Shown: piece after piece, positions 1 through 53,938 of the stretch
How positions within the stretch are numbered: the stretch's first letter is position 1
How the letters are laid out: each line of letters opens with the position of its first letter
Assembly: GCA_947568835.1 (NCBI GenBank)
Contig: OX387608.1
Location: 8,904,001-8,968,000, forward strand
Source of the DNA: Protonemura montana
Taxonomy: Eukaryota > Arthropoda > Insecta > Plecoptera > Nemouridae
Direction of reading: 5' to 3'
DNA: 64,000 nt
Program-made: the position numbers and the translations under genes
Notes under the pieces: generated by a model
Seen by the model: the letters and a program-made list of their open reading frames with translations, nothing else
What the model was told of the DNA's origin: nothing
The model's database searches: none

Positions 1-263
1 GCCGACACAAAAAAAAATAACAGAAAGTCTGCCAAAGTCGGAAATCCCCAAAAAAATGTAGAATGGATCATGAGTTTATTGTACCTATATGTTTCGTTTC
101 ATCATGCCTGACGTCATTTAATGTAGGGCACATCACCAAATCAAACTCTTTATGAGATGCCTCAGACCATAGTGGTGTAGCATCTGTTCACTTTTGTTAC
201 TTGACTAAAAAATCTATGAATGGCCGTTATGGCCGTCGGTAAACAGAAATGAATCACACTTAC

Positions 264-7464: not shown

Positions 7465-9087
7465 CTGTCGAAAAAAGAGCGGTTGAACAAGATTTGTCTT
7501 GAATAATTGTCTGTCAAATAATGAAAACTTAGATTTACTGTTTATAAGTTTGCTATAAAATTAGATTAGAATGTGCAGTTGTTTTATGACTCTCAAGAAC
7601 CTACTTCCAAAGCCCTGAATTAGGTTCTAGAGTCAAGAAGCTTGTAATATTTCTGATAAAATTGGATGAAGATCATAAGGAATGACATCTCTATTTCTCA
7701 GACTTACTTGAAAGCATGGTTCACTAGCATTTCAGTGTCTAAACGACCACAATTTTACCCGTTCTCTTATCAGGCAAAAATTATTTGTATTTATAAAAGG
7801 AAGCCCCCATTAAAAAAGTAAACGGTGGTTCAAAAAATATCCCTGCTTGACACACATCTTTGTCTTGCAAGTAGACACTGCACATGGGATCATTTCGGGG
7901 TTTAAAAATCAGGGCTTGTGTGAAAAAAAGCGGCGAGGTCGATGAAAATCGAGTTAATCTGCGTAATTGACAACTGGGGGTTTGACGCTAACGAAGAGGC
8001 AGTGGTTTTTGTTTCACGGAACGAACGTTTCTAGTGAACAACGGCTCTTTGAGTTTATGCTTTGAGGAGAAATTGATAATTAGTGAGAGTAAATTAGAAT
8101 ATTTATTTATCATGCGTTAATTTTTTGAAAACTGTTTTTCAAAAAATGAGTGCAAAGGCGTTAGGAAAATCTCAATATAATTAAGTTGTAGTTGTGTGTC
8201 AAAGCTGTTCTAACCAAAATTTTCACCTGATCAAGAAAAGGCTTGCTTCAAAAATAAATTTTAACCGGAAGTAACTCAAATTTTTACAAACTTTTGATTG
8301 CATAAACCCGAAAACCACTGTCAATTAACAGAACAAATTAGTGTGAAGCGGTACCGAGATTGACAAACTGTGCCAGTTTAGCACGAGAGAACAAGCCAAT
8401 GTTTTTTTTCGGTGCGCATTACCATCTGTTCCCCCACTTGAGTCCCTACTCCCACCTACAACCATCCGATCCTTATCATCCCAACCCGACTGCTCTAATT
8501 GCTTCTCGACACCTCGGCAAACATTGACTCACTCGGCCGCGACAAAACCCCAACGAGAACTTCAGCAAACTTTAGGAAACAATCACACTCGAATTATTTA
8601 TCATTCCCCACCCCCTTAATTCAATTCAAACAGGCAATCCAATCCACGATAACAATCAATTGTCCCTTTACGACGAATTACGCGCTTCTTCTCAGCTGGG
8701 CTCACGTAGAGGTAAAAAGAAACGAAAAACCCGAACGCAGTTCATTCTCTGATTAAAGTCGGTGTTATTCCAGCCGACGGCGATCTCCCTCCCCCTCCCC
8801 CTACCACCCACATCCACGCATGTACAGGTGCAAAGGGTGAGGGCGTTGAGACGAGAGGAAATTACGCGGACGAGGATGCTGAATTCAGTACAACTCAATC
8901 CGCCGTCGAGCGATGACTGCATGCTCCATGCTGGCAAAGGTGAGAGTTGATCACTAGGTATAATTAATATAAATCAATTTGAAAGAAATAAATTCCATAA
9001 CTGAATATACTTTTTGCTAGTACTTGGACAGACACTCAGTCAGACTGTATTATTGCAACTCACTGGGTTATTTCAGTCTACAATTAG

Positions 9088-11094: not shown

Positions 11095-14000
11095 CTGCTA
11101 TGCGTGTCCTGCTTTGGCGCGCTAGCAATGTCCTCTACTCCTACCACCGAATGGCGACGCACCCTCGACGTCGAACTTCGTCAAATCAACTCAGCGTTGG
11201 CCAGCGTCCAGTGGCAGTTGGCAACTTCGACGCCGACGCCAACGCTGGCGTTGACGTCGCGCAGACTTGGCGCTGCCGCCAGCGCCTGGCGAAACGATTG
11301 GTGTGACGCATTGGAGGGCGATGAGAGCGATGAGGACGATGAGAGCAATGAGGGTGACACCAGGGAGGCGTCATTGTTGTGTCGTGGTCCTAGATACACG
11401 AGCGCGTTGGCCGAGTGAGTTTGTTTAGACACCGTATAAACACACAATAAATTCGTGTTTGTTTATTTGTTTATGGTGTATCACGAAGGTAAAGTAAAAT
11501 CAATGTGTTTTGTGGAATGGTCGACCTGAGCTCGTAAATATTTCAAATCGGAGCTTGTGAAACGTGACCCACGCACTTTTCAGGAAACAGCGATCGTGAA
11601 TTCTAAACTGTACTGATTGGTTAATTAGAGTGGTTTAACGACACAATGTTTTGACAACGTGGGCTCTGCGGCTATAGCATCGGTAAATAAGTGGATGCTG
11701 ATCAGGATGATGATGATCCTCACCTAGCCTAGAAGCGAGGAGGGAAAACCCGGTCCCGGCACGTAGCCTACTCCTGTCGAATAGCACCAAGGGGACCACC
11801 GGCTTAACGTCCCTTCCGAAGGACGGTACAACTCGAATAACAGGATTCCTCCACAAATCCATGCTGTCGAGAGTTTAATAAGCAAGGCGAGTGAAGTTTT
11901 TGTACTAACTTTCATCCCTCCAACCTACTTCCCGAACAGAGCTGGTCATGTGTATGATGGACACCCATCCAATACCTGACTCAGCGCAGTGTTGCTTAAC
12001 TTCGGTTATCTCACCAACGTGCCAAACCGTTCGGTGACTAACTCGACGCTCCCACGCCTGTGCCAGAGCGACCTCGGCCGTCCTAGGCGACCTGACATCG
12101 CGCTACGCATCAGGACGGGTGTGCGCAGGTGCGACCTGTCTGCGCGGCGAGCCCGATTTGGAGCGCGTGATGCGCACGTCACGTGACCCTGATACACTCA
12201 TGTGGGCGTGGCTAGGTTGGCGTGACGCGGTCGGACCCGCCGCGCGTGCGCCCTACATGCGACTAGTGGCGCTACAGAATCAAGCTGCGCGCAATAACGG
12301 TGGGTAGCGGTACTAAACTTTGCAGCCCATATTTACATAAGGTTTTGTATGTAACGTTTTTAATCAAGAATCGCTTTTAGGTTCAGCAGGTTCTTAATTT
12401 ATAACGTGTAAAATACATGAAATTCGGACGTTCATCCTCGAAAAATGAACTTGCTCCCAAATTCTGTTCCTGCCATTCTTTGGTCTTGCTTTTGTCCTCC
12501 AGCATCAAGGACTGACTTTGACCTGTCCTTTAGAAACATTTTCGGCGTATGGCACCGTCTCTGTGCTAAGCTGATGGTTAAGCTATGTACCAATTAGTCC
12601 AGATTCTGACTCGTTTACCCTGTAAATCCCTCGAATTGCTCAAGCTAGTTGGGTGTACAAATAGGCACAGATGAACGATAGACCAGGATACCACCAAGTA
12701 TATCATTGATGTTACATATGGACTATTCATACATATATTTTTACATATATGGACTGTTCAGAGTATGGGACAAAGTGATGATTGAGAATAAGTGATGGAA
12801 AACAGGGAATAAAAACATTCAGACTCACAATTTAGACTCACAGTGTGATAAGAAAATATAACAGGGGTGTCCTAACCAGGGTATGAGGACATGGGCGAGT
12901 GCTGGCGCTCCGAGCTGGATACCCCTGATTTGGAGATGGTTGTGGAGCGCCTCTATGACGAAGTGCGGCCTCTTTACGAACTACTGCACGCGGTAGTGCG
13001 ACATCGTCTCGTGGGCCTGTACGGTGCCGTGCTGGTGAACCCAACGGGGCCCATTCCTGCGCATCTTTTGGGTGAGTCCTGATCTCGGTAACGGGTAGCA
13101 ATTTGCGGTGTTGATTGTCTGTTTTAGTGACGTTGTGTAACTTGTACGAGCTACTCTTTTAGGAGGTTTGACGACAAGTGATAAAGGTTCGGGTAAAGGG
13201 TACACTGTGATAGATGAGTATTGCGATGATTTGTCTTTACACTGAACGGTTTGGCGTGTTGTAAACACCGGTTCTCATGAGATCACCGAAGTTAAGCAAC
13301 ACAACACTGAGTCAGGTATTGGATGGGTGACCATTATACACATGACCAGTTCTGTTCGGGAGAGAGGTTGGAGGGATGAAAGTTAGTACAGCAACTTTAT
13401 TCGCCTTGCTTATCAACCTCTCGACAGCATGGATTTGTGGAGGAATCCTGCTGTTCGAGTTGTACCGTTAGTCAGAAGGGTTGTTGAACAGGTGGTCCCA
13501 TTGGTGCTCTTCGACAGGAGTAGGCTATGTGCCGGCACCGGGTTTCCCCTCCTCCCTTTTAAGCTAGGTTAGGTTCATCATCATCCTTATCATCATCTAC
13601 TCATTCACCGACGCCATTAGACCACTGCTGCATGGCCAGTTGCCAAAACAGTGCGTCGTTAAACACCACAATTCAATCAATCAATTTGTCTTAACTAGGA
13701 GATGCGGTTCAAGGCCAAAAGAACGAATTACTTCAAAATTGTTGCAAATTATGATGTAATTTATGATATCTTTTGCTTTGGATATGCCGAATGATTGATA
13801 AATAAATCCGTTCTTGAAATAATAGAAGTTGCAAGTAATTAAATAGAGTAAGATTGACCTTTTCTTTTTTACCAGCTCTAATAAATAACAGTCCTTAATA
13901 GATGATTTCAATTCTGACGACGGGATAATAAATCTGTTCTTAAATGGATAGACAGCTGTTTGAAAGTAAGATTAGGGTTGCAGCACAAATTCTGCGAATA

Positions 14001-17000: not shown

Positions 17001-20000
17001 CATGCAGTGTGAATGCTATCAGAAAAAAGCACTCTATTTCCAAAATATCAAATGTATACTTACGGTTTCAGCCCAAGTTTAAACTTTCTCAGCAGAAATG
17101 TTTTTTTTTGTCACTGTGAAATCACTGCCCATCACTTGAAGAGATTAACAGCAAGGTACCACATAACTCTGTACTAAAGACCACCAAAGACTATTAGAGG
17201 TTACAATTTTTCAATGGAATTAAATATCTCTGAATATTTGCTGTTGCTTTCAGTTCTTTTGGAAGTCTTCGACTTGACGCAACGAGGGTTCTTTTTTTTA
17301 ATGTCATCCATTCGAACTTCGTCTACTTTCTTGCAGGGAACATGTGGGCTCAGAACTGGGCATCACTTCTCGACCTCTTGATGCCCTCTGAGGCGGCCTC
17401 CGAGAGCCAGGACCTGACTGCGGCGCTGCGACGCCGGAACAACACTGTTATTACCATGGTGAGTTTGTCGTGGAGGTTGAGGGTGCACATTTCCGTGGTG
17501 TAACGGAGTTGCCAATGTGTGAATTTGAGATTCACACAGTTGAGATTTGTCATTTGATATTGATGTAAATTAGGCCTACAGTCCTACACTGACCAAACAA
17601 AGCTTTCAACTTTCGAGTCCAGAAAATCAGCTCCAAGCCAAAAAAGATGCCATATTCGGCTTATTTTGTCAGTTTCCTTTTGACAGCAGTTTCATATGAT
17701 ATTGAAAATATTAGAGGGCTAGTTTTACAATGTCCATAAACAACTGGAGATGATAAGAAACAATAAAATAGAATTAGACCTTTTAGATTAGGTATACATT
17801 TTTTTATACCTAATGCTCATATGGTGAAACATGATAAGGAGCATTGATAATATCAGAAGTAAACATTAACAGATAGAAATTTGATAATCACCGCAGGAAC
17901 CAGGGTTATCACCCAGACCGTTGCCCAGACACACAAGCAGCCAAAGCAAAGATGCCAGATGCTCATGTCGAGATTGACCACCTCCTTCCAGATGAAGCAT
18001 GCTGAGGACCTGTACACCTCCCTGCGTATGCCAGCCATGACGCCGACGTTCTGGGCCAAGTCACAAGTGGAAGCACCGAAGGAGAACGCCTCGTGCCACG
18101 GAACTGCTGCCAACATGTTCCGTCCAGGAGACTACAGGTAGGTGCAGCTTTCTTTCTGGAGGTCCTTGAAGAATGTCACACAACACTGGAAGCTAGTTCA
18201 CATGCAAGATATTTTGGTATTGTCTGAAATCTTAAAAAGTTATGAGACAGGAACCTTGCTTGCAAATGGTTGAGGCAAAGTCGGCAATACAATTTGGGTC
18301 AAAGAATAAAACTATTCAGTACAAAGTACTAACAATCAACAACTTTTGTCTTGAACCGGAGAAGCTATGTCACAATTATAGCAATTTGATTACTTTTATA
18401 ATTTGGAGGTCGTGGGTACTAGATATCGGCCTTTCTGGCTTAAGAATCTTTCCTCTTCCAGAACCATACATGCTGTAACATGCCACTCGCAGTCCTTGTA
18501 CCTAATTCCTAATTTACAAATGAGATAAATTGAAACCAATCATGAGATGTGCATGCTGATACAAAGACATGGTTTGTACAACATAAAGTATTTATTATCA
18601 GAATAAGCGAGCGCAAGTGGGCGGCAAGGAACCATTGTGTTGAGTAGACAGTCGGTGAAGACTCGTAGACCATCTGCCTGGAAAAGAAACAAAGGGACAC
18701 ATAATTAATTATTTTTCAATTAATTAATTGATTTATTAGTAGGTAGGTTTATCTAGTTCCTGTAACCAGTACAAAACAGTTGCTAAAACTCAGTTCTAGG
18801 TCAATTTAAGATCCATTAATTACCAAATGCACTTGTTGACTAAACAAGCGACATGCCAGAAACTATGGTTTGTTGGTTGGTTGCTTCGATTGATGGTAAC
18901 ACCCTGCAGGATGCTTTTGTGCGGGGAGGTGAACGAAGAAGATTACGCAGTGGTGCATCACGAGATGGGGCACATCCAGTACTACATGGCCTATAGTAAT
19001 CAGCCCACCATATTTCAGGTATGCTTGCCACCTTTATCTCTAAATTATTATCATGGGAAAAAGGAGAAAGCTTGAATTTCTTAAGTTGGCCCAGTGCTTC
19101 TAGACAAATCCAGCTTAAAGGCTCACATCTGACAGCTTTTGCAGCTAAAAGACCCATTGTTATGAGGATGTATTGATTCTGTCAAAACTTTTGGCCTTTG
19201 GCCCGCTGGTTGCAGGACGGAGCTAACTCAGCATTCCAGGAGGCGGTAGGCGACGCGATCACGTATGCCGCCATGACACCTCAGCATCTTCAGCGGCTTG
19301 GGCTCGTTGAAGATATATCCGAGGGTATATGTCCTCTTTTTGAAAGGACGTTAAAATAACACGCAGCATTTTGAATAAAGTCGTTTGCACAGACCTTTCA
19401 GTTCCATATCTGAATTGGAATATAACTTGCTTTTGGTCAAGAAAAATTTGTCTTGATTTCTCATCCTTGGTTGCAGTGATTCTTGTCTTCAATCCACACA
19501 TTTGGCATTTTTGGTCACGTTACTTTAGAGACAGGAATACCCTTTCATGACATGGCATTTTAAAAGTACGACTCGTAACAGAACAGCTTGAAATTCTCAA
19601 AGACCAAGTTCTTAACTGCAATCAAATCTTTCACAGTATTAGAGCTTAAGACTTAAGCTGACAGCAAACATGTCATGTCTAACTTCAGATTGATGATGGA
19701 ATTTACTGTCGTTACATGTACGAGTTGTCTAGCCAGCACACATGCCGAGTGAGTAAGACTTGGTCTGTCACAAAAATGCCTAAGAGACTGATAATTAATT
19801 TATTTTTACCAACATAACATGGCCCGAAATGTGCTAGCAGACCGTGAAGGGCTGCGCTCACTTCTGCGCCTGGCGCTGGCCAAACTGCCTGAGCTGCCCT
19901 TCCAGCTGTTGGTGGACAAGTGGAGGTGGCGGATTTTTGCCGGCGCCGACCGACCCAATGCACTTTGGTGGCAGCTGAGACTACGCTACCAAGGAGTCGC

Positions 20001-21560
20001 GCCTCCCGTTCCCCGCTCCGAACGTGACTTTGACGCTGCCAGCAAGTTCCACGTACCCGATAACACGCCATACGTCAGGTGGGTCTTCGATTCTGAACGG
20101 TCTTTCCATCAGACCGAGAATTGGATGGGCATCTTATCAGACCTGGCTCAGTCCTGCATTCTTCAACTTTGTTCATCTTGTAAAAGTTAGTCTCCTGAAC
20201 ACCCCAACCATATGGCTCCAACCGTCCAATACCGGAACATACACTGTCATACTTTACCTAAGTGATCCTATGAGAATCAGTGTTCCTACGATGCCAAGCA
20301 GTATGTTGCTTTGATTCAAAAACCATCGAACAAAAACCAGCGGAGTCAAACCATCACATAATTTCGAAACATTGCAGTATAGATTCTCTTTGAAGACCAA
20401 CAAGGATTGGCATTTAAAATTACAGACCAAACCTGTTACTGGTTAAGTGTTATGTTTTCTAGTGTAAGCACACTAAGCTGTTTTTCCATCCATCCCAAAG
20501 ACAACAAGCCATGCTTCTAGCAGTCATCCATCCTAAAGGAGACTCAGTGCCCTGTTGCTTAACCACAATGCGACCTCTGCTTTGCCTGCATTGCAGATAC
20601 TTTCTAGGGTCGGTGCTGCAGGTGCAGATGTTCAAGGCGCTGTGCCAGGCGGCCGTGACTGGGCACGTAGACCCCGCCGCCCCTGCCCCTCTGCCCCTGC
20701 ACACTTGTGACATCTACGGCTCCCAGCTAGCTGGGCACAGGCTCAGGTGAGAAATGTTCAGGGGGTGCTCATGAGTAATGGCATATCACCCAGAGAAAAG
20801 TCACCATGACCAAACAATTTCTTAATCCACTTTCTTGTTGTGATAGTTACTTCTATTGGTACATTTTTTGTTTGGGTCAAATTTTTAAGATTCATTTCTA
20901 TGCACAAACACACAAATACTGAGATTAAGCAAAACAAAAGGATGGTTAATATCCCTCTCCCGTCCTTGTTAGGTATTTTTGTTAACAACTAGTGGCAACT
21001 GAGGGATGTTGTAAAACGCACAAACTTGAAATTCCATACATTTAGAGGCCACCACTTTCAATTTTATTCGTCCACAGAAATCTGAAAGAAAACACACTTT
21101 AACTGATAGTTAAGTGGACAGTTTGATCTGTTCTTACTTCTTCGGACCAAAACAGATGACCACCGGCCTGCTGCTATGAACCCTTACCATAATTCCAACA
21201 TTTTTCACGTTTCCTAATGAAAGACAATATTCTCCCTTCCCAAGGTGGTATCGTTGATTGTGTAAATTGACGGTGAGACGCAAATTAGAATTAGAGTCAA
21301 TTTGGCCATTATCACAAACTAGAAAGTTTTAGATGGATTACTCTGAAGCTATCTGAACATCTTATTAAGGAGTGTCGTGTTTTTCCAGGGAAATGATGCG
21401 GCTGGGCGCCAGCAAGCCGTGGCGAGAGGCCTTGTACGCACTGGTCAAAGCAACAGACTACGACACTGCGCCGCTGCGCGAGCTATATGCCCCGCTTGAG
21501 CGATGGCTACATGCGCAGGTCGTCGAACATGACATTCCTGTCGGGTGGGGAGTGCAGTAG
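11095..21560 (+). CDS. ACE: angiotensin-converting-enzyme-like zinc dipeptidyl carboxypeptidase
   Basis: This is an M2-family peptidase, which removes C-terminal dipeptides from peptides outside the cell. Coding exons: 11095-11414, 12067-12299, 12880-13071, 17337-17458, 17941(or 17959)-18137, 18910-19018, 19216-19324, 19841-20078, 20597-20746, 21389-21560. All join in phase to about 613 residues, close to insect soluble ACE. The first detected exon opens with a hydrophobic signal-like stretch (LLCVSCFGALA); its ATG must be upstream. Zinc motif HEMGH is in exon 6 and the third ligand is in EAVGD in exon 7. KFHVPDNTPYVRYF keeps the substrate-binding K, H and Y residues, and WAQNW keeps the binding Gln. 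Three cysteine pairs match the family. The protein ends shortly after GWGVQ without a membrane anchor, so it should be secreted. Oddities: the CHASAW block reads CHGTAA, and HEAIGD reads QEAVGD. Exon 5 has two in-phase acceptors. Confidence 0.93.
11637..12036 (-). repeat. 5S-rRNA-derived SINE, copy in ACE intron 1
   Basis: Reverse-strand copy. The 5S-like head (read on minus: gaacggtttggcacgttgg, then caccgaagttaagcaaca, then ggatgggtgtcc) is at the right end. The body contains cctactcctgtcgaatagc on the plus strand and the tail end is at 11637. The head stops about 30 bp before the exon 2 acceptor (AG at 12065-12066), next to the likely branch point gactaac at 12036-12042. Confidence 0.85.
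13243..13690 (+). repeat. 5S-rRNA-derived SINE, copy in ACE intron 3
   Basis: Full-length plus-strand copy. The 5S-like head runs from gaacggtttggcgtgtt through gatcaccgaagttaagcaac and ggatgggtgaccattatac, followed by the body and the tail gtgcgtcgttaaacacca. It ends in a short (aatc)n tract (aattcaatcaatcaat), a typical retroposon 3' end. Confidence 0.9.
15345..15425 (-). repeat. tRNA-derived SINE-like sequence
   Basis: On the minus strand an A-box-like AGCTCAGTTGGTAGA is followed by a B-box-like arm CCGGGTACGTATCTCGG, whose stem pairs around a 7-nt loop. The canonical loop would be TTCGAAT, and the D and anticodon arms are imperfect. It is therefore a tRNA-like RNA polymerase III promoter remnant (SINE or pseudogene), not a working tRNA gene. 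Confidence 0.6.
15659..15916. mobile_element. short element with inverted ends and an internal tRNA-like cloverleaf
   Basis: Left end ggaacactaaaaacctctca and right end (reverse complement) ggaacactaattaataacctctca are inverted copies with a small gap. Between them at about 15809-15882 lies a tRNA-like fold. TGCCCA pairs with TGGGCA as acceptor stem, CACC/GGTG form an anticodon stem, and the T arm is CAGGGTCTGAGTCCCCG. U33 is replaced by G, so a functional tRNA is unlikely. A MITE that carries a SINE or tRNA pseudogene fits best. Confidence 0.5.
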
Positions 21561-24800: not shown

Positions 24801-27800
24801 TGCTAGGTAAAGGGCTACTAAATTTCCCGACGTTTCGCAACATATACTAGTTACTTCTTCAGAGGTTTGAGCAGTCCTCTGAAGAAGTAACTAGTATATG
24901 TTGCGAAACGTCGGGAAATTTAGTAGCCCTTTACTTAGCATTCAAAACCCAGTTCAAATAGTTTTTTTTTAAACTAGTGCTAAGGATAAATCAAGTAGAC
25001 ATGAGTCTAAAAACCATCATAAATTATATTCTGACAAAATAGTTAAAAAAAAAAACAGATTACCTCCGCGGCACAGCGCTTGCCAAGCGGCCAGTCGAAG
25101 AACGTGGCGAGGGTCGGAGCTGTATACGGGTGGACGCAGCGGAATGCGGGCTTCACGGCACGAGAGTCCACGAGCGGCAGCGCCGCCGCTAGCGTACCCA
25201 GCATACGCTCCACACTTGGGCATCTCTCGACTGTGCAGAGGGCAAGTGCACGGCTGTCGAAACAATAAACGCACTTTGAAAAACGCTGATTCTGCCTGAT
25301 CAACGTGGAAGAGCTTGACAGAAAAGCTTTATCAAACTGGAGTTTGAACGTTGAATGTAAAGAAATATCAACTGAATAAAATTTTGCAAAACTAGTGCAG
25401 TTAAAGAAGACACAAGTGTACAAATCTTAAAATGCCAGTTGACCCACCTGATAGTGTTTTTATGCTGGAGGGCTGCAGCCATTAACCCCATTGGCGGCTG
25501 TGACGTCATGGAACATCCGGCGTTTGATGCTGATTCCCGCTTTAACGGTCCCAAAACAGAGGGCTCCCGTTTTATCATCTCTGCAAACATCTGGGAGTCC
25601 TGTTGTGTTGTCTCCTCTGTCGACGGGTATGTGGCCATCAGCGGCTCAATCGAGGTGATTTTCTCCGTCGGTTCTTGCTTAAAATTCACCTGGAAAAGAT
25701 GTAGCCAAAAAGAACAGCACTGTTAAGCAATGTAGATCGTGCTAGATCGTGCTATGTAGATCAATGTAGATTTTTAACACCCCTATTATCTTTCAAGGGT
25801 GGTTTTTTATTTTCTTAAAAAAACACATATGGGTCATTCCATGTGTAATCACTCACCTCAAACTTTGACCGACCCAGATTTTGATGAAAATTGGTATACT
25901 TGTTAAGTTTGTTGACTTAGGGGCTATTTTTTTTTTTTTTTTTTTTTGGTCCAACCGTTCGGATATTACAAGGGGGGGAAGTTGGGGTCATTTTGCCCCC
26001 CGCGCGTGTAGTGACCACCCTTTCTACGCAATATCTAGGGTTCTATGGGAGCTACAGAGCTGGGAAAAAAATCATCTGAAAGGTAATTTCATACCCTACC
26101 TGAATATGGAAACAAAAATGACGATATGTTAATACGAATTTAATTGTGATTTTACACATCTGCATTTTCCAAAATGACCATATCGCTGATGAGTCATTTT
26201 TGATTTGCCTGATTTTTTTTCTATATGTACAGAACATACATATGATCATGTGTTCCAAAAATCAAGATGGGTGTTCTACTACTTTCCAAGAAAAAAAAAT
26301 GTTTTCTGCAAATTCATTCATAATATAAATTAATATGAACTGAATTTAAGACAACATTCAAGAAAATGATCATTACTTACAATCATAGCTACTATGAAGT
26401 ACAAATTTGCATATCTTAAGAGAGATGTAGTTTACCTTATTGAGGTACATATTTTATAAGCCCTGCTGTTGCCCTGTTGGTGTCTGTAGCCGACAAAAAG
26501 TATGTTCGACCAGTTGCCGTGTTGGGGTCGGCCAGTGTTAAAACATCAGCAAAAGCTACAATTAGTTTGTCTTGTACACTGGGATAAAAATATGATGGAG
26601 CTGGTCCATGAGGGTGTAGAAATTTGACTTGAAGTTCAAGAGACTGTGATGATTTTTCAAGAACACACGCTAGCCACCAGTCTTCGTTGTATGCTACAGT
26701 GATGAAACTGCCCACGTCTTTGAACTCAAACTCGGGTATTTCTGCTGCTGTTGCTTCCTCCTCTTCTTCTTCTTCTTCTTCTTCTCCTTCTTCATTTTTC
26801 TCAACAATCTTCACAATGTTGATTTCTTCAGAAAGAGAAAAGTGTTTCACATGTAAGGAAGTTAGCGATTTTGGGTAGAACGCATGAAAGCTTCTTGTGC
26901 CTACGATAGTTTTTAATTCTTTGAATCGTTCTTTAAGTTTGATGCCATTTGCTGTAATCTCTTCATTGGCTACAAACACAAAATTTACAGTCCACACATT
27001 TTCTGTTGCCCACCGGTAAAAGTCTATCGGCGTCATTATTTGGTCGGCATATGGTTTCTGTAAACTTGCCCGTGCTGCATTTCGTTTTACAGTCCCACCA
27101 ACTCCATCGCATGGTCCTTTACCGTGGGATGTGGCAAAAAAATGCCACTCAGCAGTTAGTTCGAAGTCAACTTCATGATGGCACAAGTTGGAAAAATTCT
27201 TCTTATTCTTATATTGGGCTGCCGCTCCATCAGAAAAGTAAATTAAATGGGATACATCCGAAATGTTTTGTTTCAGGTGTCTTATCAGGTGCTTTTGGAA
27301 AGTGTGCACAGTAACGGTGTCATGAGTTAGCGAGTCAGAAATGACAACGTAACTTAAATGTTGTATGTCTCGATCTTCAGGCTTAAAGTAACACACAAAT
27401 GGGTGAAGGGTGCATTGGCTGTTATTCCAATGGTAACCTTGTGCAGCATCCTGGAGCACAAAAGAATAATTCTCAGCGAAGTCGCCCACTACTAAAACTT
27501 CCCCTGGTTTAAGGTTGGCTTTCTTCTCCTGCATGAATGCCGCTTGCTGCCGTGCAATAAAATCATGATTTCTTAATAAAATGCATTTTTCAATAAAACA
27601 GTCAACAAACTCATCTGTAGGTTTCGTAATTGTCTCTAGGGTACATCTGTCTGTTGACAGCCACTGTTTATAAGTCACAGAGTCTATGAAATTTTCACTG
27701 AATGAGATTTCTAGCCATTCACGAAGTTCATCGGTTCCCGGACAATTGCCACACTTTCCTACAAAGCAGTTGAGAAGCGGGGGGTTGCACATGAGGCTGG

Positions 27801-30800
27801 CAAGGCAGTGTTGGTATGATTTGATGGTACCGTCTGAAAGCAAAGGCAGCTTTGCTCCCAAAGCCATCAACTTAACGTTTTGGTGTATCGTACAGACACA
27901 GACAGAATGTGTCCCAGCTGCTCCTGCCAGAACACAATGTTTGGGTCTGAGCTCTGCAAACTTCGAGAATCCAACCTTGATGTCAGGATATTTATCTTTG
28001 AAGCTGCGATACACTTCACTTAAGTTGCTTAACACTAGTCTCTTCTGGCGGTGAACTCGATTGTCACCCACTTTAACCGAGACAAAATCTTTTTTACCCG
28101 GCATGACACGGCTTACATCATCATTTTCATAAAACTCTTCAATCAGTTGAATGCAATCAGGGGAAAGAGTTTTTCCTGCTTTTTGATTTGCAGATGGCAG
28201 TATCCCTTGGGCCTTTACTAGTTGTTTGGTTTTACGTACCAAATGGTTAGATGCATTGAACTCTTGCATTATTCTCTTAATGCTCCAACTTTTTGGAAGC
28301 ACAGATAAAATTGTTATTTTCTCGCTTCTGGTACTCGTCTTAAACTTTTCTTTCAGTTGTGCTATTATCTCTGACCCATCACGGATGCTGTCCTTGCACT
28401 CCTCTGAAGATGTCAAATCTTCTTTGCTGATTTCTTCATTACTGGGAGATACTAGTTCCAATCTCTTCTTTACACCTTGTGTTATTTCGCTGAACTTTCT
28501 TTTCGAATAAAACATAGATTTACCCTTTAGTTTGGTGGTATTAATAGGTGACACACCAAATGCAGCTAAAGACTGATTCACGGCATCTGCTTCACAGGGT
28601 ATGTCCACGAAAGGTAGGTCAAGTTCAGTGGATTTAGTTGGCGTTAGAACAGAAACGGTTGTTAGTTCCTTCAGCCTGAGCGAGAGCAGCTTACGGCAAG
28701 TTGAGCATAATTTCTTTCCAGGGATGAGGTCGGCAATCTCCAAGTATTTCGTCCTGGATGCTGCATTAATTTCTCTTAACCCATTAACTTTCACTATTCC
28801 ACAGTGAGCCTGAAACGGATCGCAGCATAACTTGTGGTGACAGCTATACAGACGAAGGAATTTCTTTTCATGTAAATGACACACGGTCTTCACATTATCA
28901 CACTTAGTACGCAGAGCTAATGATAACTGCTGGTCACTATTGAAACTTTCAATGCTTTTAATCGCTAGATCTTCGATGGGTCCACATTCTTCTTCAAAGA
29001 ACAGTCCAATTGAGCACATTATGAATCTCTAAATAAAAGGTGCTTGAGAGCAAATTAGCTTCTATCCTCATCAACATGAGGCCAGAGACTGATTGCTTTA
29101 GTCCAGACAAGAAATTACCAAACTTTTTACTTGTAACCTGTTACAACTTGATCCATGATTCAGGAGCATGACAAACAATCTATAGTTGTATTCTAGGGAA
29201 TACCATTTTAAGATTCTTGTAGATGCAAGTCCAGACAAGAAATGAACAAACTTTTGACTTCTATGAACTGTTTCAACTTGATCCATGATTTACAGGAATA
29301 TGGCAAACAATCGATTTGTATTGTAGAGAATAACATTTCAAGAACATGCAACTGTGCAAACAAAAATCAACTTTAATATAAAATATATGCCAGTGCTCTG
29401 ATCACAATAATTGTGATCAAAATGCTGTTCTACTGGCAAAAAGGCACTTTTTTATAGAAAAAATTTTTTTTCTTGGAAAGTGGTAAAACACCCATCTTGA
29501 TTTTTGGAACACATGATCATATGTATGTTCTGTATATATAGAAAAAAAATCAGGCAAATCAAAAATGACTCATCAGCGATATGGTCATTTTGGAAAATGC
29601 AGATGTGTAAAATCACAATTAAATTCGTATTAACATATCGTCATTTTTGTTTCCATATTCAGGTAGGGTATGAAATTACCTTTCAGATGATTTTTTTCCC
29701 AGCTCTGTAGCTCCCATAGAACCCTAGATATTGCGTAGAAAGGGTGGTCACTACACGCCCGGGGGGCAAAATGACCCCAACTTCCCCCCCTTGTAATATC
29801 CGAACGGTTGGACCAAAAAAAAAAAAAAAAAAAAATAGCCCCTAAGTCAACAAACTTAACAAGTATACCAATTTTCATCAAAATCTGGGTCGGTCAAAGT
29901 GAAATTTAATTAAAAGTGAGTGATTACACATGGAATGACCCATATTTAATAATTTTAAGTATACATTTTATTCCCTACAAGTTTCAGAAAGGGACACTGG
30001 GGGACAAGGTTGAAATGAAAAAGTATCACCATGTGTAATAAGGTGTGTACTATAGGCATTTGGGTCTTAATAGTATCGAATCAGCATATACCACACCAAA
30101 TCAAATTGACCAAACCATGCCAGATTTTTATACCAAATCAAAACAGCACAAAACCTGACCAACTTTTATTTGAAAATAGTACTCTTGCACATACCTACAG
30201 TAAGCCCAGGACAGATTTTTTAAGATGGAGATAAAAAATCTTTTACCTCGAATTCGCACATATTCGCATGTAAATGACCATCTCACATATTTTAATTTCT
30301 CAATCAGTCTCAATTTTCAGGGGCTGCAAATGCTTAAAATTTCAAAATCTTTTCCAGAGTTGTGTCTAGTTGCGATGTGAAGCTTTCTAGAAAACACAGC
30401 TCAGAGCCCCACCAAAGCAGTGATGTCAAAGAGGTCGACAACAAAAAGACGCTCATTGAAACTTTCACTATTTAGCATCCTACTGACAGTTCTTGCAACG
30501 TTCAACCACTACTCACCTCACGAATCGCGAGCGGCTTGAGCACTGACCGCAGCAAGCTCCTTCCTGGCGCCGGCTGGGGGGCAGCAGCCCCGTTCAATCG
30601 TGGCCTCGCCACGACCACCATTCGTGTTCCGAAGTGACCGTTGATCGCAATCTGCTTGTCTTTGTTAGCAACACTAAAGGCACTCACAGGGCGAACACTT
30701 TGACCTGTAGTCCGAACCACTTGGCCTGGAGCAAAAAAAGGTCGGGTTAATTGACTAGTGGTTCTTATAGTTTGACCTGGAGTAGAAATAACCTGGCCTG

Positions 30801-42764: not shown

Positions 42765-44646
42765 CTAGCAAGTCATTCCGTGCCCCTCGTACTTGACCAC
42801 GAGCTTCCGCACAAATTCGGTGACTTCGGTGCTGAGCCCCAGTCGTGGTGCTTCCTCCTCGAAGAACGCCACACCGCCCATGCCGACGACGAATCCGTTG
42901 AGTCGAGCGGCAGCGTGTGAGCGGGTGACAGTGTTGGGCTTCAAGCCAATTGCGGTCATCAGCCAGGCATGCTGCTGCAGACGGTACTTTTGATGGTAGC
43001 TGGACAGAATGAAGTTTAGAGTTGTTAGTTGGCCAAGTTTGGTGTAGGTTGCAATACCAAATATGTTTGGTTTGCTGTCAGCAAACTTGGTATATGAGTG
43101 TCAAGATCAAAACAAAATATGTTAATTTGTGTTATAAATGATGAATTTTTGTAATTAGTAAACAATGTCGTTCCATTTTTCGTTGAATAGTACATAAGAA
43201 GTTATTATGAGAGGCTGGGTGGCATATGAAGGAATATCTTACAGCACATTGTAATTCTTGTATTTTTTGCAATTTGTCTTACTTTTTGTTGGATAAAGAG
43301 GTAAAGGCTGATGGATGAAGAAGAACATTTAAGAACTCCAGGATTGATGGAAGTGATTTACTTTTCATATTAAACTACCCTTCTATGCCTCTCTTAACAT
43401 TTTCTCAAGTTGCCATATAGATCTGCTTCAATTTTAACTAACTCAAAAATTAATGCAATGGAGTCCCTAACACACTGTAGGGTGGCTGTAAAATGAATTT
43501 TAGAAACTATCTAATTTCCAGTTACTTTCAAGCATAGAAATCCTTTGATTTGTGTCAACCGGTGATGATTGTAGGTCCGTGCTGACTATTTATAACTCAT
43601 AAAAAAGTCGTGATTTTCAACTTTCCACACTGGTATGGGTAGCGATCATGTAACCTATTCGTTAGAGATCCCGCACATTTTTTTCGGTTAATTCCAGGGG
43701 TCAATACACGTTATTTGACAAGATAACAAGCGGGATCTCCGAAGAAAAAGTAACATGATCAATACGATGGAGCTTTTAAATGGCATTCACAGAACTTGAT
43801 AAGTCGCAAAGAACTCACTCTTCTGCAGCATGGAACTCCGTGGCTGACAAAACCTTGGTCACCAGTGGTGCTTTGCGTTTAGCCTGCTCAACAATGAGTG
43901 ATTCCTCGGCTAGTTTCTTTTGCTCATCGTCGTGGGTTAGGATCAGCGATGTATACTGCTGAGTCATGCGTGCCGTGGGCTCATGGTTTGCCCAGAAAAG
44001 CGACAGGAGCTCTGCGTAAGATGTCTGAGTCTCATCGAATTCAATTTCAATGCTCTCAGTGTGGTCTCCACTGCAAAAAACCAGAGACGAGTGTTTTTTT
44101 TTTAAATTTTGTCTGATAAAAATGAGCAACTAATTTTTCCTCAAATGCAGGAAATTGAAATACAATAAAGTGAATAACCAATAAATGTGCAAGTGTTGAA
44201 CAAAGTATTTATTAAATGCAAAAAGCAGAAAAAAATTAGAATTACTTATGTACATTTTCTTACAGATTACTTGAATTAATAGACATTTTTGTTAAAGTGA
44301 GCTCTGAAAATTTTTTACTCACAGGTCGTGGTATGTAGGGCCTGGAGTTGAGCCACCTGCATATCCAACTCGAGTACGAATCACGCCCTTCTGCACGCCA
44401 AACAAAGAGTCTGGAGCCCAGAAGCAAGCCATTGCAAAGGTGGCCTTCTTCGTCGGGACATTCACCTCATGTAGAATCTTTGCCATGGCCTAGAAGCATA
44501 TCACCGTGAGATACAAATCCAAAAATTAAAAATAAAACGTAAGAACGACACGTGGAATCGCTTACGTTAAAGGATTCGGTGGTTCCGGTAGGGGCTCGAA
44601 GGTGTAATGCTAGTCGACTGAATCCACTGATAATAGTGTTAAACAT
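42765..44646 (-). CDS. MSRA: peptide methionine sulfoxide reductase A, divergent
   Basis: MsrA reduces methionine-S-sulfoxide in proteins and repairs oxidative damage. Exons in transcript order: 44646-44566, 44489-44323, 44070-43819, 42999-42765; phases agree, giving 244 residues. Exon 1 encodes an Arg-bearing, acid-free amphipathic leader (MFNTIISGFSRLALHLRA) that looks like a mitochondrial presequence. An in-frame ATG at 44712 would add 22 residues, but a CAG just before 44646 could be an acceptor, so the start is unsure. The catalytic block reads ACFWAPDSLFG instead of GCFWG, with Cys-Phe-Trp kept. GYAGG, PTYHDL and QYTSLI follow. Usual partner residues near GGYTPNPTYREV are changed (Y to S, E to D). 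The AEDYHQKY end is normal and the protein ends in Cys. It may be a metazoan MsrA-like subfamily. Confidence 0.85.
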
Positions 44647-46800: not shown

Positions 46801-46900
46801 GCGTCGAACTGGTTCCCCCCGACGACCGCTAGTCGCTTATAAAAGCATTCTACCGGGCCGGGCCGAGGTTTCGTTCGTCTGTCCCACTCCTGCCGGCAAC
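46795..46900 (+). promoter_or_regulatory. TATA promoter of secreted gene 1, shared with its paralogue
   Basis: CTTATAAAAGCATTC (TATA core 46838-46846) lies about 55 bp before the ATG at 46901, in a block of roughly 100 bp that matches the reverse strand at 51467-51595. The shared part runs from gcgtcgaactggttcccc to the start codon, including ctaccgggccg and gaggtttcgttcgtctg. Confidence 0.75.
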
Positions 46901-48053
46901 ATGGTGAGATTTTCCACTTGTCTTCCGTTTTCTCTGCGATTTTCTATTGCCAGCTTCTGCCGCTAGTGTCTATGGATACATTGACACGGCGCCATTTTGG
47001 AATCTTCTTAGTTGATGATCAATCTTTCGGTTCATGACTGCTAAATAATAGTATTCTCTTATTTAGTCAGCTATGTCTTCTTATGAGGGCTATGTACCCT
47101 TGGTATACGATCACAAAAAAGCCAAAGATTTTCTTTGGAGGCTAGGAGACAACATAAAGGTTCAAGAAAATATGTTCTAATCCAAAATTCTTCAACAGTG
47201 GCGCTGGCTTACGCTGCTGGTGACAGCCCAGATGGTTGCGCTGATCACATCTGAGTCCCTCATTGCAAACAGGTAGGCGTCCACAGAAAACCTTTTAGTA
47301 ACTATTTTACAAAGCACACTCTCACGCTACACTCTTTGTCTCAGATCTTCGCTGTATGGCGATCACGTTACTCGAACAGTAGCTACCTCGTGCAAACTGG
47401 ACATACCCAATTGCTTCTGCTCCATGCAGCCTGTTGAACCCGAACAGGCACCTCCACCCTACCCCTGCATATGGGACGCCGTGACCTGCGAGTGCGGATG
47501 GGACGTCGCCGGCTTAGGCGTCTACACCGGTGTCGGCCCCGCCGTCCCAGCCGACAAAACATGCGTAGTGGACGCTCGGAACTGCTTGTGCTTGGTCGGA
47601 TCGCTGCCCTTGGAGCCGGAGGTTGTCGTCACACCGGTTAACATCGAAGAAATACTCACCAACGTAGATGCCCAGATAAACGCCATTCATGCCCAAGTGG
47701 CACCATTGTTGCCGACCATTCGAAATGTGGCTGAAAAACCGATAGGCGCAGTGGTAGCGCTGTCTTTTGAACAGCGAGAGAAGTTGATAGAGGAGCCTGT
47801 TTCGGTGCTGACGCAGCTGAAAGAGGTGGCTGGAAATAAGTTGAACTTTGAGAATTTACACGGCGGTGAAAAGGAAGCGCTGATGGCATTGCTGCGCGAA
47901 GAGAATGTGTATCTAGGCAAGCTGCGCAACGACACCATGTTTATGATTGGGCAGCTTGGTAAGACGAAGGTTGGTGAAGTGCAGCCGATGGTTGTGCGGC
48001 TGCGCAAGGTGTTGGCCGAATTGGAAATCGCGTCGCGAAAAGCGCCGAAATGA
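46901..48053 (+). CDS. secreted C-x6-C-x-C motif protein 1
   Basis: Unrecognised family. Exons 46901-46903 (ATG only), 47199-47272, 47345-48053 give 261 residues. Exon 2 encodes a signal peptide (MWRWLTLLVTAQMVALITS). The mature N-terminus carries three copies of C-x6-C-x-C: CKLDIPNCFC, CIWDAVTCECGW and CVVDARNCLC. The C-terminal ~140 residues are charged and helix-prone, without Cys, and include the block shared with the paralogue (KPIGAVVALSFEQREKLIEE, matched there by EPLGALKGLTFAQRKNTIAE). Exon 2 is 74 nt in both genes. No further membrane segment is seen, so extracellular export is predicted. The role is unknown. The short first exon and strong TATA box resemble highly expressed tissue-specific arthropod genes such as cuticle or silk-gland genes; that is analogy only. 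Confidence 0.85.
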
Positions 48054-49160
48054 GGACGTGACGTGAAAAGTCACGTACGATCTGAAGAAACCTGGGACTG
48101 GATAAAAATTAACAGATGACAACCGACGGGGAAGACTAACGATGGTTGAATTAAGAGGTTTACTGTTGGTAACAGTGTAGCCAGGTGTTTATTAAGCAAT
48201 TTTCCTTCGTATAAACTGGAGACTTATTACTTTGTCTTATCCTGTCAGGAATTTCATCTACTATTAAACATTTGAATGTCGTAGGATAACCATCAGAGTT
48301 TTTTTTTTTTTAATTTGGTTCTATGTAACAACCGCTTCTTAAACTCTTCCTGAAACTGAAACTCTTCTTTTTTCTATCACATTCCTGAATTCTTGTCTTG
48401 AAATTTGTCACATTACCAATGAGGGACGGAATATCTGCCCAATTTAGTTTTATATTTGTATTTGCTTTCATTTTCACGCGAAATCTCGTGAACTTTGATT
48501 AGCCTCCCTTCTCCTCGCTGAGTACACCCACCTTTAAGACTTTCTCACTGCTGACTCCATAAACCCCAGTGTAGTATTTTCAGCGTTAAAAACACCAGTA
48601 AAAATGGTTGCCACACAATCTTTCAGTCCATAAGCTCTTATGTGTGCCATGGAAAACTGTATGTCGGTCATTTTTTTGTCATTTTTTTTTTATTAAAAAA
48701 TCTATGGACACAGAATTATGTTATCCGTGTAAAACTGGATATATCTCACAAACGATTCAAATATGTAATTAAATTAATATGTCACTATCAAAAATCCGGA
48801 TTGTCCGGAAAAATATATTTTCATTTAAAAATAAATTAAATTTATGAACAAATCAATGCAATTTTTGTTTTTGTAATTTAAAAAATTTTCACATTGGTAT
48901 TTGGTACTCCTCAATTTTCCATTCACTTTAAAGTCGCAGCACAAGACGGGCGCAGAAATAAAAAATAAAAACGATACCTGTCGTCATGACCGACATAAAA
49001 ATAAAAACATCGGACTGAGATGACCTCAAGACCACGTGTAAGTGCGTCTCAAATCTGCGTCTGAACAAGAAATTCCTAAACTCAATATGCCATTTAAACT
49101 TCTTTCTTAGGTCACTACACCCAACGTCAAAATGACACTCTAAATAATGGATTCAAGATT
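48054..49160. other. spacer between the two tail-to-tail paralogues
   Basis: No gene is seen. AT-rich with several A- and T-runs. It should contain the 3' UTRs of both convergent genes; AATAAA-like strings occur on plus at about 48829-48835 and 48956-48966. No homology arms from the duplication are visible here by eye. Confidence 0.5.
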
Positions 49161-51469
49161 TTAATCCCGCTTGACCTTTCGAATCGCTTCCTCAAATGCT
49201 ACCGCCACTTTACTCAGTCGCGCCACGATCGGCTGCCCAATCTCTCCAATCTGCGCAGCCAACAACTCAGAGTCACGACTCACCGCGGTAAGGTACTTGA
49301 CATCTCCGCTCAGCTGCGCCACGAGCGCGTGACCATCGTCGCGTTCTATACGTCCAATCAACTCAGCGTCCTTAATCATCTCCTTCAACTGCATCATAAT
49401 TACGACCGACTCAGCAATTGTATTCTTCCGCTGCGCAAAAGTCAGCCCCTTCAACGCTCCTAGTGGTTCCAAAGCCATCCGTTGAGTACGTGGCAATAAA
49501 TTTTCCAACGTTCCTATCAACGACAGCAAAAATGTCTGAAAACTAGTAATTTTATTTACCAAACTCGCCTCTGTCTCTGGAGGAGTGACGATAGCCCCCA
49601 CTAGACACGTGCACTTTGAGTAGTCTGTCACGCACTTGTCGTTCGTGCTGATTTTCGGCTGATTAGAGGCAAATTGGGCTAACCCGCCCACGCCCATGTC
49701 CCAGCCACATTCGCAAGTGCTCGAATGGGTCAAACAGGCTCGGATAGGTTCTATCACGTCCGTGTTTGGTACCGTAACCGGCTCATAGTTGCACAGACAT
49801 GTTGATAAGTCAACGTGGCAAGTCTGCGTGGATATCCGGGACGTTGAGGTTATGTTGGTTGATTCGGGAGGCGATTGCTTGGCGTCGGTGTTCCGTGCGA
49901 GGTAGATCCACAAGCACGTACAGGTGTCTAGGTTGTAATTGCAGCCGCCGAACGGGCGGTAGGTGAAGCAATTGCAAGTGTTGGGGTCCATTTCGCATCG
50001 CATGTTTAATCTGCCACTGAGAGAACATTTCAAAGAGTTAATATGTGCTTAAGTAGGCACTTTTTAAACATATATTTCCATTTTTTATGTACTTGTTCGA
50101 CTATACAGACAGCGCTAAACAATTTAAATAAGCGTTACAGTGACGAGGGACTTTGGAGGAACTTTACTTAAAAAACTTAACTTCGCTTAACTCACATAGG
50201 GCCACTAGGTACCAATGTTCAGTTAAAAAGATAACTGGTATTTGGGATAGAAATAAAAGTGTCTGATTGGCTGTGGTAATGAAGATGACTGGCCGTTATC
50301 TATTGTTGTAAAACTGACCCACATTTAAGCTGATCATCCAAAAAAAAAGATTCCTGTTTTTTCGGCATGGTTATAATATTCAATTCTGTATTAGATGAGC
50401 TTAGGCACGATTGATACTGACGATAATAGCTTAGACGTGAATAGGCACAGAAACCCTTACAGTTCTAACAGAAATTCTAATGTCAAAAGTCGTCCAAGTA
50501 TGTAATAACAACCGAACGGTTTGGCGTGTTGGAAACACTGGTTCTCGTTAGATCACCGAAGTTAAGCAACACTGCGCTGAGTCAGGTATTGGATGGGTGA
50601 CCATCATACACATGACCAGTTCTGTTCTGGAGAGAGGTTGGAGGGATGAAAGTTAGTACAGCAACTTCATTCGCCTTGCTTATCAACCTCTCGACAGCAT
50701 GGATTTGTGGAGGAATCCTGCTGTTCGAGTTGTACCGTCCTTCGGAAGGGACGTGAAGCCGGTGGTCCCCTTGGTGCTTTTCGACAGGAGTAGGCTACGT
50801 GCCGGCACCGAGTTTCCCCTCCTCCCTTCTAGGCTAGGTTAGGTTCATCATCATCCTCATCATCATCCACTCATTCACCGACGCCATTAGACCAGTGCCG
50901 CAGGGCCAGTTGTCAAAACAGTGCGTCGTTAAACACCACAAATAATAATAATAATAATAATAAACGTTATAACAACTCTACTGTATGCTCTAGAATATTT
51001 ATCTATATTATAGTATATACTACACTTATAAATGTCCGCTAAGAAATATCGGATGAGAAACTCACGTGCCAATGTCCTTGAAGTTGAGTGTGGCGCTAGC
51101 AGACGCCAAGGTCACGATCAGCAACAGAAACCCGAACCACTAAGAAGAAAAATGTGTTAGGAAAAGCGATCCGCATTCTGAAGGAGCCCGAATCTACCTG
51201 AGGTGAAATTGTAAAAAAAAAACTTACATAACTTTAAATAAATCGGCTGAATTAAATGGGTCATTTTCTTAAAGATGGCGCCCAGCGAAAGTCAGAACTA
51301 GCGCTGCGAGCGGTGAAATCTGGCGATAGTATAGTGAAATAAACGGGCAGAGTTTTCTATGACTTTTCACGCCAAAAGAAGAGACGAAAACATGAATTTT
51401 TTTTTCTGATATTGACAAAAATCTCGTCGCGGAAATCGTGATAGAAAAATGGCTCTGAAATCTCACCAT
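49161..51469 (-). CDS. secreted C-x6-C-x-C motif protein 2 (paralogue)
   Basis: Paralogue of the plus-strand gene at 46901. Exons in transcript order: 51469-51467 (ATG only), 51139-51066, 50016-49161; 310 residues. The signal peptide is MWFGFLLLIVTLASASA. Five C-x6-C-x-C motifs are present: CEMDPNTCNC, CNYNLDTCTC, CHVDLSTCLC, CLTHSSTCECGW and CVTDYSKCTC. The last three align with the three motifs of protein 1, so either two motifs were gained here or two were lost there. The Cys-free helical C-terminus matches protein 1. Intron 2 (50017-51065) holds a 5S-derived SINE. The gene runs toward its paralogue, tail to tail. Confidence 0.85.
50513..50965 (+). repeat. 5S-rRNA-derived SINE, best-preserved copy
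   Basis: It runs from gaacggtttggcgtgttgg through the 5S-like block gatcaccgaagttaagcaac and ggatgggtgaccatcatac, body cctactcc (reverse) and gtgccggcacc, to the tail gtgcgtcgttaaacacca. It ends in (aat)7. It lies in intron 2 of secreted gene 2, antisense to that gene. Confidence 0.92.
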
Positions 51470-51600
51470 GTTGGCGGCAGTAGCGGGTCAGACGAACGAA
51501 ACCTCGGTCCGGCCCGGTAGAATGCTTTTATAAGATGCTAGCGGTCGTCGGGGGGGGGGGGGGGGGGGGGGGGGGGAACCAGTTCGACGCTGAGACGTTT
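51470..51600 (-). promoter_or_regulatory. TATA promoter of secreted gene 2 with expanded G-run
   Basis: On the minus strand TTATAAAAGCATTC (TATA at 51526-51534) and the following block match the plus-strand promoter at 46838 onward. A run of 27 G on plus (51550-51576) replaces a run of 6 C in the paralogous promoter. A run this pure may fold as a quadruplex or may be affected by sequencing error. Confidence 0.75.
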
Positions 51601-53938
51601 GACGTCGGGTCAACGCGCCAATATTGGTTGTGTGCAACTGAAAACCTACATCGGTCTGCGGATAGCGCAATGTACAGGCTCTAGGCTCGAAGCCGGAACT
51701 TTGGGAAGTACTTTGAGATTCGATAAGAAGAAGCCATAGAAATTTTTTTAACTTTTTGGTTGAGCTTTGCGGGCGATTCGAGGGACAAAAAGTGCCCCTA
51801 AAGATTCCACAATACTGAAAATAAATATTAAATGTACATGTCCGGATGTCAACTTACATTTAAATCATATTTAAATATTTAGTTATCAATGAGATTCCAG
51901 TGGTAGCATACCAACCTATACTAGTCGCCTATTTTGATTAAGGGGGCCAAAAATAAACCATGTCAAAATGAAAAATACCACTGATAAGTAGGTTAGTACG
52001 TATAGGCCAATAAGTAAGTCAGACTTTTTCTGGCACAACATTTTTTGGTACATGTCACATGTCTTACAGGTAGTGTTTGTTCTATATTTTTAGCACATTT
52101 AAAAAAAATGCATTTTAGTTTACATAAGATTTTTACATTCTTTAGAGGCTGACAGAAAACTAAAAATTCGTATGGAGAGGATTTGGCCAGCGTGAAAAAA
52201 GAAGTCGTCTGGAAATGCATTTTCTGCTTAAGGGTAGGTATTCAAACGTTCAGTATGCAAATGCAAATAAAAATAATAAAAAATCAGTTAAAGAAAACAA
52301 TAAGACTTTTAAAATTATTATGAAGACTAATACCTTCTCAAAAATTGATGCCCAAACGGGAATTTGCAATTTAAATAAGATTTAAAGAGTTGCCATAAGA
52401 ATTGCACGTATTCGCTGAGCTCGCTCATCCAATAAACAAGATTAAATTACTAGCGATCCTCAAGCCTAAACAAAACCTCTCTGACATTTCTGACATTTCT
52501 TGCTAATTGAGATTTCTATCATTCATGATTAAATAGATTCAACAAATTAACCACCCACCCCATTTCACAGAATCACTTCGCGGACGTCCGATCGCACACG
52601 CTATCAGAGCGAGCGAGAGCGACATGTGTTTGTAAACACACCCCTATGCCATTTGTGTACCCCTTCCACCCTTCCCAGTCCATCGGCGTTCACCACAGAT
52701 TAGGGGGAGATCGCCGTCTGACTGGAGATCCAACAATCACATCCGTGCTTTTGTCTTCTCTCCCTCCCCCCCCTCTCCTCTACCAGCAATATAATAGTCA
52801 TCAGTGCTGCAAACTCGGGAGTTTAATTATGACATTGGTTATACGCCGAATGGAAAACTGAAAAGAGCCAGCTGTCTCGATGGGATTTGTTAATGCAGTG
52901 TTGTTTTCTCTGTGCATGCTGCTTTCGGATTGACAGAGACATTCGTAGGATCGCAGTGTTCCAGTTCCGTACGAACGTCATTGCTAATTCAAAAATACGT
53001 TAAAACATACCTTAAAAGTGTCTATAGCGATTAGTGACTGAAAAGTGCGATGTTATTTTATTTAAGGGGAAATTGGCATCTAGAGATTTTGGACACATTT
53101 TTCTAGAGATTTTCTGGCCGCAACGATGGAGTTCAAATGCTAGAATTTGAATTTACTGACCGCAAAATGTTTGGTGCTTTGGTGCTTAAAAAAATTGTCC
53201 ATAAGATTAACACAGAGACATTTTTGACCCCTAGCACCTAGTACATTGCACTGGTTTGCACTGGTTGGATATATTCCGTATTCAAGGTAACAAAAAAAAA
53301 ATAATACGATTATTAACAACAACAAAATTTCCTTCAGAAACAGCAGCCTTTTTACGAAAAAATGTGTCAGTTTTTGAGTTAATTCCTTTTATATTTTCGT
53401 GTTGATGGAGGTGCCGTACGCTTCGGCTAAAATCTGAAATCAACCTTTTTTTGGATATGCTTAGACTTTTTCGTATACCGCATTTCGTGTATCGTGTGGT
53501 CACAAAAAAAAGATCCCGTACGCGCATATAAAGCCAAAGAACTCTTGAGGACTTTTTAGGGTGCCCCATAAAAATCACCAAACCCACAACATCCAATTAC
53601 ACTCCGAGATATTCACCAATAGTGTCGATCACAATGCAATTTCGAATTGTCAACCGGTCGGCATCCAGCGACACCAACAAAGCGAGCGGATTTAATGAAA
53701 TCCCGACAAGACACCTGCCCCTATGTCTTGCGTCCCTTAATCAACGCCGCCCTCGCCGTTAAAAACCGGCCAATGGGGGACGGGCGTCGGCGCCGCGACG
53801 CTTTGTGTGCGCAATTCAATCAATTACAAGTGGGCGGGGACATTGTTGCGTACCCTTTGGGAGCAACCCCTATTGGTGAACGTTTTGGGTTTGGATTCAT
53901 CGGACTCTGATTGCATTAGAATTGATTGACCAGTGGGA
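51600..53938. other. gene-free interval with GC-rich patches
   Basis: No coding region is supported. 52560-52960 has a GAGCGAGCGAGAGCGA run followed by TGTGTTT-GT-AAACACA (forkhead-like palindrome, 52625-52640). 53640-53910 is GC-rich with an 87-codon ORF that shows no family feature. Both could be regulatory DNA; nothing proves it. Confidence 0.4.

Follow-up and report, generated by a model that had tools for sequence, protein, structure and literature searches.

Two neighbouring genes of Protonemura montana, here called A and B, encode proteins whose C-terminal domain is homologous to that of three collagen-like proteins encoded elsewhere in this genome. The genes lie in the window C11:8904001-8968000, the whole stretch of 64,000 nucleotides that was analysed, and relatives were sought within their own genome (258,480,905 bp in 34 contigs). 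As judged from sequence comparison, the homology is strong for A and runs mainly through A for B. Two orphan genes would thus become part of a family in which one end domain is attached to collagen-like rods in some members and to cysteine-rich arms in others. We suggest, with a probability of about one half, that A and B belong to a modular structural family that also has collagen-like members, and that within it they are the secreted, cysteine-rich, non-collagenous proteins.

The C-terminal domain and its collagen-like carriers

The domain covers residues 119-261 of protein A (47622..48050, + strand) and residues 170-310 of protein B (49164..49586, - strand). Both tails are free of cysteine and are predicted, with moderate confidence, to be helical, which bears out the common helical tail described in the first-pass annotation. 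When gene A was searched against its own genome, three weaker matches were found beyond A and B, all confined to the tail, at C4:10914310 (E 3.6e-5), C15:11331306 (E 3.4e-4) and C15:11319387 (E 0.0026). Each of the three is the C-terminal end of a collagen-like reading frame. The corresponding genes are C15-1 (C15:11317394-11319809) and C15-2 (C15:11327640-11331623), which are close to one another on contig C15, and the giant C4 (C4:10920889-10914277, - strand).

The reverse searches returned gene A from all three tails. The C4 tail detected A at E 2.2e-6 and the two C15 genes at E 4.8e-9 and 1.6e-8, while A was recovered at E 6.6e-5 from the C15-2 tail and at E 4.6e-4 from the C15-1 tail. In hhalign, the joint profile of the A and B tails aligned with that of the three collagen tails over 127 columns, with a probability of 97.3% and E 2.4e-11, and nine alignment columns were identical across all five tails. 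In shuffle tests, none of 1000 shuffles reached the score of A against any of the collagen tails, or the score of B against C15-1 or C15-2. The N-terminal helical part of C4 served as a control against the five tails. Its scores were reached by 65 to 374 of 1000 shuffles, and this part is therefore unrelated to the tail. The five genes are a minimum count for the family, as each search scored only 3 to 7 candidates.

The collagen-like character of the three genes is seen in their matches to PF01391, the Gly-X-Y family, for which A and B had no match at E up to 10. The C15-1 model (603 aa) contains 133 Gly-X-Y triplets in runs of at least four and matches PF01391 at E 8.4e-55. For C15-2 the last reading frame gave E 2.2e-20. 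The C4 model (2,036 aa) gave E 6.4e-75 over 1,907 residues scanned. C4 consists mostly of a 13-residue repeat, GPPGPPGSNGNPP, in 83 copies, with a further 34 copies of a 16-residue form. Each of these repeats has one residue over whole triplets and the Gly-X-Y frame thus slips regularly; an ordinary triple helix formed by such a rod is putative. A decayed copy of the C4 tail (72% identity, two stops) lies nearby at C4:10912540-10912749. Towards its N terminus C4 has a part that looks helical, and the gene also encodes a cysteine cluster, C-x8-C-x-C-x-C.

An open scan of exon lengths from 40 to 130 nt gave, among three rows for each gene, a 74-nt signal exon in C15-1 and in C4 that ends in phase 2. 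A and B have an exon of the same length and phase, and four of the five genes thus share this design; the fifth probably has an 80-nt version of it. The C-x6-C-x-C motif of A and B was not found in C15-1, in C4 or in the scanned frames of C15-2. C15-1 has two cysteines (one C-x6-C) and C4 has six, including the cluster mentioned above.

The first-pass annotation had assigned A and B to an unknown family and had proposed a profile search and structure models as checks. In the Pfam profile search, no family matched A or B at its cut-off, and no PDB sequence matched below E 0.06 (best E 0.6 for B, 0.4 for A and 0.069 for the tail profile). In that respect the earlier description stands, but it is too narrow, since the tail is homologous to three collagen-like proteins. 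Gene A had a single sub-threshold Pfam match, in the tail, to PF18397 (E 0.045), and gene B had none. Among the five tails, PF18397 (E 0.011) and PF15011 (E 0.022) also appeared below threshold, each in one member only, and were taken as chance matches. The tail is thus a domain that lacks a matching model in the Pfam copy searched. No profile of the known cysteine-rich families (EGF, VWC, TIL, CPCFC and the like) matched A or B.

The A tail was modelled from a two-sequence input. Helices were predicted at positions 8-26, 30-37, 41-45, 49-71, 82-109 and 117-140 of the tail. The best model had a mean predicted local distance difference test score (pLDDT) of 69.6 and a predicted template modelling score of 0.60; the other four of the five models had a mean pLDDT of 45-57. 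The predicted structure is consistent with a four-helix-bundle-like domain. The model of protein B (mean pLDDT 42) also has a helical tail, with pLDDT blocks of 44-70. Foldseek gave no match at E <=0.001 against PDB for the B model or the A tail model, or against the viral library for the A tail model. The Foldseek matches listed were largely generic helical bundles and are uninformative on descent.

Architecture of genes A and B

Gene A lies on the + strand (46901-48053) and encodes a protein of 261 aa. Gene B lies on the - strand (51469-49161) and encodes 310 aa, or two residues fewer (308 aa) if an alternative acceptor is used. The two are arranged tail to tail. In gene A, exon 1 (46901..46903, + strand) is the ATG alone, followed by GTGAGA. 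Exon 2 (47199..47272, + strand) has 74 nt, ends in phase 2 and carries the signal sequence, and exon 3 (47345..48053, + strand) includes the stop codon. Gene B repeats this design on the - strand, with an ATG-only exon 1 (51467..51469), a 74-nt signal exon (51066..51139) that again ends in phase 2 and an exon 3 including the stop codon (49161..50016, or from an exon start at 50010 with the alternative acceptor). All four introns, as read from the sequence, have GT...AG ends. The signal sequences were recognised by eye, and on this basis both proteins are probably secreted. A stretch resembling 5S rRNA (50511-50631, + strand; 58.7 bits) sits within intron 2 of gene B and is possibly part of a 5S-derived repeat; a second such stretch was found at window position 13241-13361 (+ strand; 55.2 bits).

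Third-codon-position G+C content of exon 3 was 63% and 61%, compared with 34% G+C between the genes. When exon 3 was compared over 228 aligned codons, identity between A and B was 47%, 60% and 39% at codon positions 1, 2 and 3, respectively, which indicates that the protein sequence is under constraint. Identical residues were found at 73 of the 228 positions, and the two proteins are 31% identical.

The cysteines of both proteins are confined to C-x6-C-x-C motifs, of which A has three (47391..47591, + strand) and B has five (49605..49997, - strand), together containing 9/9 and 15/15 of the cysteines. Chance placement was simulated by dropping an equal number of cysteines within the cysteine-bearing stretch, in 200,000 trials per protein. 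Three motifs arose in 15 of the trials for A, and five arose in none for B, where the maximum was four, seen twice. The first-pass annotation was correct in describing an inverted pair with a Met-only first exon, a 74-nt signal exon and a large third exon, bearing three and five motifs of uniform internal spacing. In the alignment, the three units of A correspond to units 3 to 5 of B, and the string TCECGWD is common to the middle one; B therefore has two additional units at its front. An aspartate stands three places after the first cysteine in six of the eight motifs, which contain only two histidines in all. With an odd number of cysteines, neither chain can pair all of them internally, and one or more in each must lack an intrachain partner, unless modified or metal-bound. 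Such unpaired cysteines would favour covalent links between chains.

The promoters of A and B are nearly identical. A block of 98 nt, running from above the TATA box through the 5′ untranslated region and the ATG of exon 1 into the first bases of intron 1 (46815..46912, + strand), has its counterpart in B at 51458-51555 (- strand), with 90/98 positions identical and no gaps. Within it, the TATA box of A (TATAAAA; 46838..46844, + strand) and that of B (51526..51532, - strand) are both 63 nt upstream of the ATG. The similarity resumes farther up in B, where a 31-nt piece (51571-51601) matches at 94%. Since the proteins are only 31% identical, the promoter must be strongly constrained or have been homogenised between the copies. 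The near-identity of the promoters suggests that A and B are probably expressed together. Neither these promoters nor the collagen-like relatives had been in view for the first-pass annotation. Just upstream of the B promoter there is a run of 27 G (window 51550-51576); at the corresponding place gene A shows 6 C, read on its own strand.

Interpretation and alternatives

The common part of the proposed family would be a helical C-terminal domain of about 140 residues, and the arms would be either Gly-X-Y rods (three genes) or cysteine-rich (two genes). The signal peptide would send A and B to secretion, and the four-helix-bundle-like tail could act as an assembly domain that gathers chains. 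The cysteine-rich arm, built of three-cysteine units, would form disulfide bonds, including bonds between chains. Jointly expressed, A and B might then link or coat an extracellular collagen-like material such as a silk, a glue, an egg coat or similar. This reading supports the earlier suggestion of an extracellular or structural family. If the five genes do contribute to one material, this would be a further arthropod use of collagen beyond its usual matrix role. It would also be a compact natural protein-material system, with one assembly domain and two kinds of arm. A previously undescribed animal material, in which collagen-like chains and disulfide-rich, non-collagenous chains are joined by one helical C-terminal domain, with A and B as its cross-linkers, can be proposed only tentatively.

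Several points weigh against this reading. The expression of A and B, their presence in the proteome and their disulfide state are predictions from sequence. The direct matches of gene B to the collagen-like genes are weak. The B tail alone found C15-1 at E 0.87 and the C15-1 tail found B at E 1.31, searches from the C4 and C15-2 tails did not return B, and its score against C4 was reached by 26 of 1000 shuffles. The link of B to the collagen-like genes is therefore mainly through A. The promoter block was recovered in the genome search, in which very common words were skipped, only at A and B (plus the 31-nt piece). It likewise did not turn up near the three collagen-like genes. Co-expression of A and B with these genes thus lacks promoter support. 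The Met-only exon 1 was found in A and B but not upstream of the three collagen-like genes. The open scan gave no fitting signal exon for C15-2, whose signal exon is probably 80 nt long; this exon was picked by eye from many phase-2 candidates of 60-100 nt and is uncertain. Finally, the cysteine-rich arm could not be modelled (pLDDT 22-29 in the B model).

A and B could instead belong to an internal matrix, such as basement membrane, cuticle or a connective sheath, with the tail acting as the non-collagenous end domain of matrix collagens does. The presence of the same tail on collagen-like rods and the signal exons would fit here too, and we regard this as a serious alternative, albeit an unlikely one. 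No matrix or cuticle domain in Pfam, searched up to E 10, matched A or B, or any of the five tails. The TATA promoters with their same 63-nt spacing seem better suited to secretions with strong, local expression, though cuticle genes can have them too. Somewhat less probable is that A and B are soluble effectors which arose by duplication of a structural ancestor and simply kept its old helical tail. Small secreted cysteine-rich proteins are often inhibitors, antimicrobials, venom components or seminal proteins, and A and B do lack collagen repeats. However, no inhibitor, defensin-like or toxin family was matched in Pfam or among PDB sequences, each unit has three cysteines, an odd number, and the tail has been retained in five genes.

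The rigid spacing of the motifs with their C-x-C pair, together with the recurrent aspartate, could also be explained if the units bind a metal such as zinc or copper, A and B then being extracellular metal-binding or metal-hardened proteins. Metal binding would then take the place of disulfides, and we consider it improbable. Cysteines of proteins in the secretory pathway are usually oxidised, the motifs are poor in histidine, and no known metal-site family was matched in Pfam or among PDB sequences. Convergence of helical, charged sequences in place of homology is very improbable. The PDB profile search and the Foldseek matches did yield generic helical bundles, and the weak score of B against C4 could be read in the same way. 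Against convergence stand the nine columns identical in all five tails, the hhalign result, the signal exon common to four genes, and the negative outcome of the control with the N-terminal helical part of C4. A modular structural family with secreted, cysteine-rich members remains our preferred reading of A and B.

Neighbouring features and known systems

Other candidate members were rejected. The frame at C2:10117888 that matched (E 1.3) has one C-x6-C and no C-x6-C-x-C; a lone C-x6-C-x-C in another frame was taken as chance. The candidates at C14:4843703 and C3:19464750 (E about 1) and at C3:15822211 (E 3.83) had no motif in six frames. Of the pattern matches on bacterial and archaeal contigs 0/19 were confirmed, and of those on viral contigs 0/28; no relative was found there.

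Elsewhere in the window, a 2,459-residue open frame (162-7541, - strand) has many NKPGIAQNDLC-type repeats and is hydrophobic over a stretch close to its beginning. It had no Pfam match above cut-off, and DUF6844, at 0.00058, fell below it. An 863-residue open frame (26437-29028, - strand), with no Pfam match at 0.01, gives the impression of a mobile-element protein. Exons were also identified of an angiotensin-converting-enzyme-like peptidase (19798-20190, + strand; PF01401, 6.5e-28), of a protein with an MsrA_helical domain (42768-43100, - strand; 1e-6) and of a protein with a 3HBD three-helical bundle domain (25046-25426, - strand; 1e-8). Beyond the window, TTAGG telomere repeats occurred at one of six contig ends read, the start of C15 (1,000 readable bases, 5,000 masked), which marks the host as an arthropod. 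In the 10,000 bases read of a 15,885-bp contig, reading frames and one tRNA resemble mitochondrial genes of an insect or crustacean, and on this basis the host would probably be an insect or another pancrustacean.

Among known systems, spidroins combine a repetitive core with a conserved helical end domain that controls assembly. The proposed family would resemble them in outline, but up to E 10 none of the five tails matched a spidroin family in Pfam, which presumably contains such models. The insect cuticular family CPCFC has a repeated C-x5-C in secreted proteins. A and B likewise have a repeated short cysteine motif; however, its spacing is C-x6-C-x-C and the family was not matched in Pfam. 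In the literature on collagen silk, sawfly silk, collagen-like eggshell and stonefly or mayfly collagen, no such family was found among the matches listed, as judged from titles and the starts of abstracts. The silk of the sawfly Nematus oligospilus is described as three small collagens, and it shows that insects can make collagen-like silk (PMC12976744). Its collagen-like proteins are secreted as a material, which might also hold for the collagen-like relatives of A and B, and the passages describing it mention no cysteine-rich partner or helical tail (PMC12976744). Within the genome of P. montana, the collagen-like genes differ from A and B in their Gly-X-Y rods and in that no C-x6-C-x-C was found in them, but they have a homologous C-terminal domain and, in C15-1 and C4, the same 74-nt phase-2 signal exon.

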